Under the pieces are notes generated by a model. The model searched no databases, was not told the origin of the DNA, and worked only from the letters and a program-made list of their open reading frames with translations. This document shows positions 29,891 through 33,948 of a stretch of DNA of 59,049 bases, piece by piece. Source of the stretch: Fibrobacterota bacterium. GTDB lineage: Bacteria; Fibrobacterota; Fibrobacteria; UBA11236. The position numbers and the translations under genes are program-made. The stretch covers positions 1 to 59,049 of the forward strand of contig JAQBPN010000064.1 of the NCBI GenBank assembly GCA_028287505.1. The letters are read 5' to 3'. Positions within the stretch are counted from its first letter, which is position 1. Every line of letters starts with the position of its first letter.

Positions 29891-30859
29891 CTACTCGAAC
29901 TTGGTGGAAACGTTCATCGAGAGGATTTCCCGATTCAGATCGGGCATGCCGGAATCGGCCGATGCGGCCACCGGGTGGTAGATAAGCAACTGGGGCCTGG
30001 GAGACGGAGACCTTCCCGCCAGCGGCGTTTCATCTTGCGCCGGACCCGTAGGATTGCCCGCGCGTTTCCCTGACGGGTTGGCCGCAGCCAGCAGCTTTCC
30101 CAGCCTTGGATTGTATCTCACGCCTTCCAGGCCGACCCTTAGCGTACGGACCCGGTTCAGGATCCTGCATTCGAACCATGCATCCAAACCGGTAGCCTCC
30201 AACGCTTTCCCCTGCGAGTGGAAAACCACGGGATGCTGCAATTTGTATTGCACGGAAATCAGGCAATCGCTTTCCGCCTTTTGGATCAGCTTTTGGGATT
30301 CCCGGCAAAGCCAATTCCGGATCGGCTTTTCCCGGAAAAAGAGATCGGGCGAAGTCCCATCGAAGGTGAATCCCTTGCCTGCGGCGGGAGGAACCAGAAG
30401 GACCAGGGCCCAGGATTGGACCTGAACATGCCTCACGACCATGGGCTGGCCGAGATGTGCGCGCAAGCCGTCTTCCGATCCGGAACCCTCTATGGGAATG
30501 AGCCCCAATTTCAGGGCCAGCAGGATCGACTCGCCGGAAACCCCGACCGGCATGCACACGAAAGCCGCTTTCGCCTCCAGGGAATTTTTCCGCGCGGCCA
30601 GACTCAACAGGGGCTCCCCGAAACGGAGGTCGATCGCTCGCAACTCCTGTATCAGGACCCGGTGGGTTTGCCCATTCACTTTTCCTTCGAGGACGAAAAT
30701 GCCGTTCGCGCCCTCCTTTTCCCCCGGAGCTTCCTGTGAGTAAAGGATTTTGGAACGGACATCCATCGCCTTGTGGACGGTTTCGGCCACTTTTTCCCGC
30801 GGCGAAAGCCTTTTTCCGGCTTCGGACCGCTTCCACTCCTTTAATTGGAGAGCTTCCAC
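29891..30859 (-). CDS. Unrecognised protein divergent from the MoxR locus
   Basis: About 322 residues, cytoplasmic by appearance (no signal peptide or membrane segment). I recognise no family. The middle (about 55-150) alternates strands and helices (GIFVLEGKVNGQTHRVLIQEL, FVCMPVGVSGESILLALKLGLIPIEG), and the C-terminal part has a WFECRILNRVRTLRVGLEGVRY segment followed by a Pro/Ser-rich tail. The GTG at 30859 is preferred because AAAGG lies six bases upstream; a GTG at 30877 is possible. Codon use resembles its neighbours. It is divergent from the MoxR-like gene across 187 bases holding an inverted repeat and promoters for both sides, so a shared role is possible but unproven. Confidence 0.65.
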   Translation of the reverse strand: MEALQLKEWKRSEAGKRLSPREKVAETVHKAMDVRSKILYSQEAPGEKEGANGIFVLEGKVNGQTHRVLIQELRAIDLRFGEPLLSLAARKNSLEAKAAFVCMPVGVSGESILLALKLGLIPIEGSGSEDGLRAHLGQPMVVRHVQVQSWALVLLVPPAAGKGFTFDGTSPDLFFREKPIRNWLCRESQKLIQKAESDCLISVQYKLQHPVVFHSQGKALEATGLDAWFECRILNRVRTLRVGLEGVRYNPRLGKLLAAANPSGKRAGNPTGPAQDETPLAGRSPSPRPQLLIYHPVAASADSGMPDLNREILSMNVSTKFE

Positions 30860-30913
30860 AATTGGCCTTTCTCGCACGGAAAGCCCATCCTGGCCTTTCC
30901 TGCTCCAAATATG

Positions 30914-30922
30914 AGATTAGCA
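30914..30922 (-). promoter_or_regulatory. Extended -10 promoter of the unrecognised gene
   Basis: Minus-strand TGCTAATCT about 55 bases before the GTG start at 30859. Member of the TGCTAnnnT set; here a leader with a ribosome binding site follows. Confidence 0.4.
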
Positions 30923-30965
30923 CCTTCGAAGGGAATATGAATCAGGAAGGCTACCCGATTAGAGT

Positions 30966-31002
30966 TAGGGTATCCCCCCATATCTCATAGGAAAATACCC
31001 TA
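30966..31002. promoter_or_regulatory. Inverted repeat in the divergent promoter region, candidate operator
   Basis: TAGGGTAT (30966-30973) and ATACCCTA (30995-31002) form a perfect 8-bp inverted repeat, centres 29 bases apart (about three helical turns). It ends ten bases before the -35 of the MoxR promoter. A two-site dimer-binding operator is plausible; no binding protein is known. Confidence 0.4.
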
Positions 31003-31011
31003 GGTCTATTT

Positions 31012-31040
31012 TTGACCTTTTCCCCTCTGCCGTTTACATT
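31012..31040 (+). promoter_or_regulatory. Promoter of the MoxR-like operon
   Basis: TTGACC (31012-31017), a 17-base spacer and TACATT (31035-31040). The GTG start at 31047 follows after six bases, predicting a leaderless mRNA. Confidence 0.6.
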
Positions 31041-31046
31041 GCTTCC

Positions 31047-31961
31047 GTGAGAAAGACCCAAATAGAAAACGTGGAAATCCACCTGGCCAATCCGGTGGAA
31101 CTCAATGTCGAATGGATAGGGCAGGAAGAGCCCTTGACCCAGCTTATGGCCTGCTGGCTTTCCGTGAACCCGGGCGATCAACCCCTGTGTCCGCGCCTGG
31201 TGGGGCATCCGGGCCTGGGCAAGACCACTTTGGGCATGGCCGCCGCGAAAAAGCGGGGCCAGGAAGTCTACGTGCTGCAATGCACGGCGGATACGCGCCC
31301 GGAAGATCTCATCATCACTCCCGTGCTCGGCGAAAAAGGCAACATCAAATACCAGGCCTCGGCCCTGGTATCGGCCATGATAACCGGCGGCGCGGTAATC
31401 CTGGACGAAGGCAACCGCATGTCGGAGAAGTCCTGGGCCTCCCTGGCTCCCCTGCTGGATGACCGCAGGTCCGTGGACTCCCTGGTGGCCGGCATCAGCA
31501 TCAAAGCGCACAAGGATTTCCGTTGCGTGGTCACCATGAACGAGGACGATTCGACCTTCGAAATCCCGGACTATATCATGTCGCGCATCCAGCCCGCCAT
31601 CGAATTGCCGTTCCCGAAGGCCGAAGAGGAACTGCGCATCCTCAGGTACAATCTTCCCGGCGCGCCCGAGGACCTCATGCGGATCTGCGTGGGATTCCTG
31701 CAACAGGCCCATGGCCTGGATCTTCCCTACTCCATCCGCGACGGCCTCAACGCCATCCGCTTCTCGCAAAAGCTCAACGAATTGCGGCCCGACAAATGGG
31801 AAGCCTTGTTCACCACGGCCATCCGCCAGATCCTGGGGGATGAAGCCCTGGATATGGAGACCCTGGCCGAGAAGCGCAAGCGCGAAGGACGGCTTCCCAA
31901 CATGCAGTTGGGCGACTTCTTCTTCGACGAGGACAACCCCTTGAATCCGGACCGGGATTGA
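31047..31961 (+). CDS. MoxR-like AAA+ ATPase
   Basis: 304 residues of the AAA_5/MoxR type. Walker A is GHPGLGKTT, Walker B AVILDEGN, and sensor-like TMNEDDSTFEIPDYIMSRI includes the arginine-finger region; the C-terminal helical lid follows (LPYSIRDGLNAIRFSQKL). MoxR ATPases remodel or activate partner proteins, usually encoded next door and often carrying a VWA domain. Here the partner at 32023 has no VWA domain that I can see. Start is GTG at 31047, six bases after the -10 and with no Shine-Dalgarno, so it is probably leaderless. A hairpin lies between it and the partner gene. Confidence 0.88.
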   Translation: MRKTQIENVEIHLANPVELNVEWIGQEEPLTQLMACWLSVNPGDQPLCPRLVGHPGLGKTTLGMAAAKKRGQEVYVLQCTADTRPEDLIITPVLGEKGNIKYQASALVSAMITGGAVILDEGNRMSEKSWASLAPLLDDRRSVDSLVAGISIKAHKDFRCVVTMNEDDSTFEIPDYIMSRIQPAIELPFPKAEEELRILRYNLPGAPEDLMRICVGFLQQAHGLDLPYSIRDGLNAIRFSQKLNELRPDKWEALFTTAIRQILGDEALDMETLAEKRKREGRLPNMQLGDFFFDEDNPLNPDRD

Positions 31962-31970
31962 GAATCCATG

Positions 31971-31998
31971 CGGTCTGGCATGGCTGAAAACCAGACCG
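31971..31998 (+). promoter_or_regulatory. Intercistronic hairpin between MoxR-like gene and partner
   Basis: CGGTCTGG (31971-31978) and CCAGACCG (31991-31998) form a perfect 8-bp stem with a 12-base loop. No T-run follows, so it is not an intrinsic terminator. It could set relative expression by mRNA processing or protection. Confidence 0.5.
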
Positions 31999-32022
31999 TA
32001 AATCGCCATCTCTCCTAGTCCC

Positions 32023-33948
32023 ATGTCCATCCGGCTCACAGATAAGATCTCCGCCTTCCCCGTCCGCCACGGCCGGGCGCCCTTCGCGATGGAATTGCGG
32101 AAGCTTCTTTGGAACCAGGGCGGCAATCCTTCCGAAAGGTTCGACGCCTTCGCATTCGCTTTGCCGGCCGCGCTCCGCCGGGAGGCCCTGGAAGGCGCCG
32201 AGGCGTTGCCCATCATCCGTTCCCTGGTGATCCGGGTGGACGGCTCGGTACGGGCCTATTTCCCTTTCGATCCCTGCGACGCCTACGTGGAAGCCTTGCG
32301 CCAGGCGGGCCAGCGCCGGCTTCCCGTGGAATTCCTGGAGGACAACGCCCTTTTCGAAGGCCCGCTGATCCAGTCCCTTCCCGACGCCTACCTGGCCAAC
32401 GGAATCGGAATGGATCGATACCTGGAAGTGGCCAAACAAATCCTCGCCACCCAGGGAGTGGACGACAGGCTGGAACACCGCGGTTACGTCGTCTCGGCCG
32501 GTCTGCGCCGCATGGAGAAACGTTTCGGCAGGATCCTCCTGCTGTGCGACTTCCCTTTGCTGGGCCGCCTGCAAGAGCTTTTCCAGGAAGGTTCCATCGC
32601 CGCTCTGCTGGCGGAAGCGGAAAACCGGGATGCCGGGTCCGCCGCGCAAGGAGCGTCGGCCGCGCAAGCGGAGTCCGCCACCGCCGAAACCGTGGACATC
32701 CGCGCCTATCCGGTGAAGCCCGGTCTGGTGTATTTCGCCATGGGGGAACTCCCTTTCTATGCGGGCGAGATGGAAAAGGAGCGTCAGAATCCCCTCGCCG
32801 GACCCATGGACTACCTGGAACTGGTGAAACGCATTTTCGTCGAGACCCGGAACAAGTTCATCACCGAACCCGGGGAGGCCGAGGCCATTTCCATCAAGAA
32901 AATCCAGGCCGCCCTCGTGTTCCTGCGCAACATGGCCGTGCAGCAAGGCCGGCTGACTCCGGATCTGCTGGACGTGGTGAGCGCGGCAAAGGGAGTCTTC
33001 GGCAACGCCTTCGCGGCCAAGGTGCTGGAAGCCGCGCGTTTCTACCCGTTCCTGGATCCTTTGGATCTGGAGGAAGATCAATTGGAAATCGGGCGGGACC
33101 ATATCCGGGAGCCGGGCGAAGGCGAGCCCGCCGATGCAGGGCAACCTGTGGTTGCCTTCAACATGCTCGAGGACGAACCCAAGGTCTGGAAGACCATCAA
33201 CCTGAAGAAGGAGCCGGACCGGGAGAAACAGCGGCGTTACCGTTACGCCTGGGATCCGCGCGGGATGTGCTCCCACACCCCCGAGGACGAACGCATCGAA
33301 GGATTCAACCGCGCCGTGCGCCGCCGCTCCCAGGATCTGGATCTGCAGGGATTCGCCCGCACGGAGAAGCTCACCTCCTCCCTGAAGGACGGCATCGACA
33401 TCCGCGAGACCCTGCGCAACTGGACCACGGGCGGGATCTACGTCAAGGAAATCCCCCCCGCCAAGGGCCGGGTGGACACCGTGGTGATCATTTTCGACGA
33501 GGACAACGACGATCGCTATCCTTCCCGCACCACGTGGTATGCCGAGCATGACGAGGAATCCACCCTGACCTTTTTCGCGACCGATCCGCTTGTCAAGCTG
33601 ATCGGTCCCGGCATCGCGGAATCGGAATACGGGGGCCTGAGCCTGTTGTTCCCTCCCCGCCCGGTCCGGAACGTCTTCGAAATGCCCCTGGAAGAGTTCG
33701 GCTTCCACAGCCTCTCCGAGCAATTGTTGTACGGCGCCTTGTTGAACAGCGAGGAGAAATCCGTCGCCTACGTGGCCAACCGAAAGCCAGGCCTGCGTAT
33801 GAAGCGGATGGCCGCCGGATTCAAGAAGCGCCTGGTGTGGGTTCCCATGGCCTCCTTCAGCGCCGAAACCCTCCGCCGCCTCCGGAAATTCCACATCCTC
33901 AACGGCAAGCAGGTGAGGGCTTGGGCTTCCCGGTTCATTCCGGAGTAG
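32023..33948 (+). CDS. Unrecognised 641-residue partner of the MoxR-like ATPase
   Basis: 641 residues without signal peptide or membrane helix. I recognise no family and see no VWA MIDAS motif (DxSxS). Three parts can be drawn: an N-terminal domain (about 1-215), an Ala/Glu-rich linker (about 216-228), a central helical region (about 235-340) with an acidic linker near 355-380, and a C-terminal domain (about 395-641) with VVIIFDEDNDDRYPS, STLTFFATDPLVKLIGPG and GGLSLLFPPRP. The acidic DEDNDD cluster after a hydrophobic strand might bind metal. It follows the MoxR gene by 61 bases and is most likely cotranscribed, so it is the presumed ATPase substrate. No good ribosome binding site is seen at the ATG. 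Confidence 0.75.
   Translation: MSIRLTDKISAFPVRHGRAPFAMELRKLLWNQGGNPSERFDAFAFALPAALRREALEGAEALPIIRSLVIRVDGSVRAYFPFDPCDAYVEALRQAGQRRLPVEFLEDNALFEGPLIQSLPDAYLANGIGMDRYLEVAKQILATQGVDDRLEHRGYVVSAGLRRMEKRFGRILLLCDFPLLGRLQELFQEGSIAALLAEAENRDAGSAAQGASAAQAESATAETVDIRAYPVKPGLVYFAMGELPFYAGEMEKERQNPLAGPMDYLELVKRIFVETRNKFITEPGEAEAISIKKIQAALVFLRNMAVQQGRLTPDLLDVVSAAKGVFGNAFAAKVLEAARFYPFLDPLDLEEDQLEIGRDHIREPGEGEPADAGQPVVAFNMLEDEPKVWKTINLKKEPDREKQRRYRYAWDPRGMCSHTPEDERIEGFNRAVRRRSQDLDLQGFARTEKLTSSLKDGIDIRETLRNWTTGGIYVKEIPPAKGRVDTVVIIFDEDNDDRYPSRTTWYAEHDEESTLTFFATDPLVKLIGPGIAESEYGGLSLLFPPRPVRNVFEMPLEEFGFHSLSEQLLYGALLNSEEKSVAYVANRKPGLRMKRMAAGFKKRLVWVPMASFSAETLRRLRKFHILNGKQVRAWASRFIPE

Follow-up and report, generated by a model that had tools for sequence, protein, structure and literature searches.

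Which protein does a MoxR-type ATPase work with when the gene beside it does not encode a VWA protein? MoxR ATPases often act on the protein encoded by the neighbouring gene and are thought to pair typically with VWA proteins. The window analysed here, a stretch of 59,049 nucleotides, is contig 14 of a 6.07 Mb MAG of Fibrobacterota, and it carries a MoxR-like ATPase gene followed by a gene for a large protein of no named family. The features of the locus are as follows.

29891-30877, minus strand: ORF of the divergent third gene, 328 aa, no family
31047-31961, plus strand: ORF of the MoxR-like AAA+ ATPase (AAA_5 group), GTG start, 304 aa
32023-33948, plus strand: ORF of the partner, 641 aa, no named family, 61 bp downstream of the ATPase gene
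32023-32610, plus strand: partner residues 1-196, predicted TIKI/ChaN-fold domain, homologous to the DUF5682 (YehM) N-terminus (hhalign, VIA-align)
32812-33045, plus strand: partner residues 264-341, helical domain, possibly AAA-lid-like or histone-like (VIA-align)
33208-33948, plus strand: partner residues 396-641, C-terminal module with no recognised relatives (conservation, profile searches)

An earlier note, made from the DNA letters, had placed the system at 30859-33948. The genes are as it described, including a partner of exactly 641 residues, but position 30859 belongs to the upstream region and the ATPase gene begins about 190 bp later.

The ATPase and its partner are conserved genes

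Between congeners, dN/dS is about 0.04 to 0.08 for the ATPase (dN about 0.04 versus dS about 0.9 for the closest) and about 0.1 to 0.2 for the partner (dN about 0.1 versus dS about 0.9 for the closest). Since dN is far below dS, indicating strong purifying selection, both are real, constrained genes.

In a Pfam profile search, the ATPase exceeds the cut-offs of AAA_5 (65 bits) and AAA_3 (33 bits). The Walker motifs are intact, as had been claimed: Walker A (GHPGLGKTT) occupies residues 53-61 (G53-T61) and Walker B (AVILDEGN) residues 116-123, and both are invariant across the ATPases from ten genomes. N165, R180, and R231 are also invariant, and by position they are candidates for sensor 1, the arginine finger, and sensor 2, respectively. 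The closest solved relatives by profile comparison are the midasin AAA modules, followed by CbbQ and NorQ. In a small AAA_5 tree, the ATPases of the pair cluster together with a support of only 0.57; they and YehL fall into separate groups, and no special sister relation was resolved.

Co-inheritance of the pair

Is this gene pair kept in other genomes? In a set of 61 relatives, the partner was found in 10 genomes, and the same 10 have the ATPase (10/10), whose subfamily is easily told apart there (at least 55% identity in those 10, at most 36% for every other match). In Planctomycetota, 46 of 244 genomes have the subfamily ATPase and 45 have the partner, and both genes are present in 45/45 partner genomes (Fisher p about 1e-48 (1.5e-48), calculated over related and hence non-independent genomes). 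The two genes are linked in 17 of these 45 pairs. The other 28 pairs are unlinked, 17 of them lying on one contig at a distance of 0.23-4.6 Mb and 11 on different contigs. Genes that stay together without being linked are unlikely to be mere hitch-hikers.

Scanning GTDB genomes for the partner yielded 53 loci, whose record titles name Fibrobacterota, Planctomycetota, Gemmatimonadota, Latescibacterota, Nitrospirota, and Omnitrophota. In 41 of them, the subfamily ATPase precedes the partner on the same strand, and one more has an ATPase fragment at the contig end. Eleven loci with no ATPase nearby were followed up; the ATPase was found elsewhere in 10 of the genomes, twice as a partial match, and nowhere in one MAG (G061). 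Among the tabulated linked loci, which include some near-duplicate records and are not 57 independent events, the ATPase gene precedes the partner gene in the same orientation in 57/57 with a median gap of 15 bp, and the gap is 50 bp or less in 35/57. A fused form of the two genes was not noticed, which counts against the reading of a two-gene machine discussed below. By record title, which can be wrong for MAGs, partner homologues occur in at least seven phyla, Chlamydiota included. The mirror-tree correlation between ATPase and partner (0.93) was set aside as evidence because common descent explains it.

In summary, the partner is a near-obligate genomic companion of the ATPase. A system of two genes kept in distant genomes, which the earlier note had anticipated, is strongly supported, and the finding it had set against its own proposal, homologues mostly in genomes that lack the ATPase, was not made.

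Several individual loci deserve mention. One near-single-contig planctomycete (G179, L193 6888-7904) has the ATPase and no detectable partner even by a wider profile, the sole case in 244 genomes, and the ATPase may therefore function by itself at times. In a genome of the same order (L026 2272-5488), a citrate synthase gene and a DNA alkylation repair gene lie between the ATPase and the partner. In planctomycete G089, the unlinked partner is followed after about 0.7 kb by the gene for a different MoxR-like ATPase (L153 8627-9625). A congener with an intact pair also holds a second, degenerate partner copy on the minus strand (L029, G001:C48:41556-42143), covering residues 422-631 at 72% identity with one internal stop. 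Neochlamydia sp. S13 has an adjacent pair on plasmid pS13 (L215 3305-7008), directly 3′ of a ttcA-family tRNA thiolation gene. Two partner relatives, one with the ATPase upstream, are on IMG/VR contigs (L219 368-3260 and L220 125-1957), which are possibly bacterial contigs misfiled as viral.

Other genes around the pair

Does the system include a third gene? The gene at 29891-30877 is divergent from the same region, as had been described, but it does not travel with the pair: it was found in 3/61 genomes, all of the source genus, and in one of these (G002) it is on another contig. It is a lineage-specific orphan and was rejected as a third component. Apart from the ATPase and the partner, no gene near the pair is conserved across phyla. 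Other neighbours show only lineage-level synteny, such as the genes for NusG_II and heptaprenyl diphosphate synthase component I in Chitinispirillia, and were likewise rejected as components. Among 4,659 flanking ORFs, there is no VWA gene of the CoxE type, the only VWA subfamily profiled, and no DUF5682 gene lies within the flanks of the pair.

Domains of the partner

Profile searches of the partner against Pfam, NCBIfam, and PHROG gave no family above chance, and a PDB sequence search using partner profiles gave no match. When 50 homologues were compared with Pfam and NCBIfam, the matches were at chance level apart from one to DUF5682 (PF18934) at E 0.063, the best of the 50 and short of the cut-off for the whole protein. 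A structure model built from 91 homologues has a mean pLDDT of 90.7 and a pTM of 0.81, superseding a model from 10 sequences that was too weak (pLDDT 69.5). The new model agrees with the three regions proposed earlier. Foldseek of the model against PDB and viral models gave no significant match; the best viral one was a TraB family protein (E 0.05).

The N-terminal domain resembles the N-terminus of DUF5682 with an hhalign probability of 97.7 (E 2e-12), versus 0.6 for the reversed control and 0.1-3.4 for the VWA and AAA controls. The claim that the partner matches no known family therefore holds for Pfam, NCBIfam, and PHROG but not for its N-terminal third, which is related to the MoxR-associated DUF5682/YehM. 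VIA-align of residues 1-196 gave Z-scores of 7.3 with ChaN and 6.8 with HopBA1, and more TIKI members are among the lower matches; the top match, above ChaN and HopBA1, is a Tetrahymena complex IV subunit (Z about 10). These Z-scores are individually near the usual background but agree with the matches to DUF5682 and to the viral TraB protein. Together, the profiles and the model assign the N-domain, along with the DUF5682 N-terminus, to the parallel beta-sheet core fold of the TIKI superfamily.

The catalytic set of TIKI proteins consists of 2His/2Glu (PMC6254334). In the sequence alignment, this set is not evident in the partner: there is only one conserved His (H16, kept in about 91% of homologues), the Glu two residues before the first His is absent, and at the strand-2 Glu the partner has 'LPP' in place of the 'IEGP' kept by DUF5682. 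Hydrolase activity in the N-domain is thus unlikely.

Residues 264-341 make up a helical domain that matched a Mg-chelatase ATPase subunit (VIA-align Z 7.1, rmsd 2.4 Å over 71 residues). The match weakly suggests a layout like that of an AAA lid or a histone fold, an arrangement that is common.

The C-terminal module (residues 396-641) is the most conserved part of the partner, with a mean column conservation of 0.64 versus 0.53 in the N-domain. It contains the motifs CSxPPED, SxxDGxDxRETxR, TWxAExxxES, GPGI, YGG, and LRxFHxLNG, and C416, E421, D422, E426, D456, R461, R465, E508, E512, and H624 are invariant or nearly so. The module has no PDB sequence match, was seen only as part of full-length partners across 199 genomes, and is a candidate new domain. 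The acidic cluster DEDNDD noted earlier is present at residues 492-497, but it is not kept as a cluster: across 91 homologues, position 492 is Asp or Glu in 100% and D496 is kept in 87%, while no other position is kept. DEDNDD was therefore rejected as a family motif.

Could the C-terminal half be a diverged VWA domain or a DUF5682 relative? No Pfam VWA was found in the 50 homologues. The hhalign probability with DUF5682 was 0.6, no better than reversed controls, and the scores with YehP-type VWA were at the level of reversed controls in a profile comparison whose reach ends short of a degenerate VWA fold. On these scores, a DUF5682 relation of the C-terminal half and a VWA domain within reach of profiles were both rejected; the half may still hold a degenerate VWA fold. 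VIA-align of the model returned zero rows for the C-terminal half, which the structure comparison barely covers. No clear VWA fold was found over the full length of the partner, nor the fold of another known MoxR partner; the earlier note had named either result as speaking against a new system.

A possible two-component machine

What might the two proteins do together? Given their joint occurrence in very different bacteria, also where the genes are unlinked, they almost certainly function together, most likely in a complex for ATP-driven remodelling. The leading reading, given slightly less than an even chance, is that they form a dedicated two-component machine of this sort, akin to the YehL-YehM type but lacking a VWA. 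By analogy with NorQ, the ATPase would form a hexamer. The partner would dock on the ATPase where a VWA co-chaperone usually sits, and ATP turnover would change the conformation of the partner. The C-terminal module would then act on, or assemble, a third protein or a metal cofactor. The TIKI domain, probably no longer capable of TIKI-type catalysis, would serve as a binding scaffold. Counted in favour are the co-occurrence, the order of the linked genes, the negative results for neighbours, the homology of the N-domain to DUF5682, and the NorQD analogy. Counted against are the genome with the ATPase and no detectable partner (G179), the chance that a third subunit is encoded away from the pair, and the set of invariant polar residues in the C-terminal module, which would suit an enzyme that is the client of the ATPase.

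Such a chaperone and client pair is a less probable but serious alternative. In it, the ATPase would mature or reactivate an active or metal site in the C-terminal part of the partner, itself an enzyme, and would have no other substrate. The conservation of exactly two genes, the invariant Cys/Glu/Asp/His/Arg set, and the habit of MoxR ATPases of acting on the product of a neighbouring gene agree with this. The module, however, could not be assigned to any enzyme family, and the N-domain resembles a MoxR-associated protein, DUF5682, whose operon also has a VWA gene. The co-chaperone reading is preferred over the client reading because of this DUF5682 kinship, though the separation is not firm.

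A reduced YehL-YehM-YehP-type system that recruits an unlinked VWA protein from elsewhere in the genome is a rather improbable reading of the pair. The N-domain homology would fit, as would the fact that both ATPases are AAA_5 members in the broad sense, with a profile match probability of 92.9. However, the homology ends with the N-domain, the C-terminal half matching neither DUF5682 nor VWA; the ATPases form separate groups with no resolved sister relation; and some planctomycetes have both systems.

That the ATPase regulates the partner as a hydrolase of TIKI type, either a protease or an esterase, would agree with the TIKI/ChaN-like fold and the retention of H16, but it is quite improbable given the missing 2His/2Glu set (PMC6254334) and an N-domain less conserved than the C-terminal module. 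Least probable of all is a MoxR-centred system of defence or other conflict: MoxR-VWA ternary conflict systems are known from planctomycetes (PMC7159879), and one pair is on the Neochlamydia plasmid and two relatives come from contigs classified as viral, but the PADLOC match is a weak generic AAA+ one (TRIP13, to the AAA core), the pair occurs once per genome and keeps its synteny within the genus, no phage genome matched, and no gene is conserved beside the pair across phyla.

A more far-reaching reading is tentative: the pair may represent an undescribed class of MoxR machine, in which the VWA co-chaperone has given way to a three-domain protein whose C-terminal fold is new and probably serves catalysis or metal binding. 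The class would be widespread across Planctomycetota and Fibrobacterota as well as several other phyla. A co-inherited pair in which no VWA is detectable would mean that another protein can take the VWA role, and it would offer a simpler two-gene model.

Comparison with known systems

The pair shares with the MoxR-VWA pairs (NorQ-NorD, CbbQ-CbbO, RavA-ViaA, and CoxD-CoxE) a MoxR/AAA_5-type ATPase and one dedicated partner; unlike theirs, its partner has no detectable VWA domain. Its best-studied analogue is NorQD. MoxR-type ATPases and their partner proteins remodel targets or insert metals, and in NorQD the ATPase remodels a linker in the VWA partner, allowing metal insertion (PMC13036017). 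Compared with the TIKI superfamily (ChaN, HopBA1, Ere esterases, and RRSP), the predicted fold of residues 1-196 is alike, whereas the partner shows no evident 2His/2Glu set, has two further domains fused to it, and is tied to an ATPase.

The closest likeness is to the YehL-YehM-YehP(-YehQ)/DUF5682 loci. In E. coli, the gene order is yehL (MoxR ATPase), yehM, and yehP (VWA), and DUF5682 genes of planctomycetes have AAA_5 and VWA_CoxE neighbours; G064 and G089 are examples of planctomycetes with both this system and the pair. Among open-licence papers, no literature was found on DUF5682 or on yehM together with MoxR. In these loci, too, a MoxR-like ATPase gene adjoins a gene for a large protein with the homologous N-domain. 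In contrast, the pair has no adjoining CoxE-type VWA gene or yehQ, the C-terminal half of its partner is unrelated by profile to that of YehM/DUF5682, its ATPase belongs to an AAA_5 group separate from YehL, and its genes are often unlinked. The pair thus looks like a new two-gene, VWA-less relative of the uncharacterised YehL-YehM-YehP operon, and the link of YehM/DUF5682 to the TIKI fold makes the orphan yehLMP operon of E. coli easier to test.
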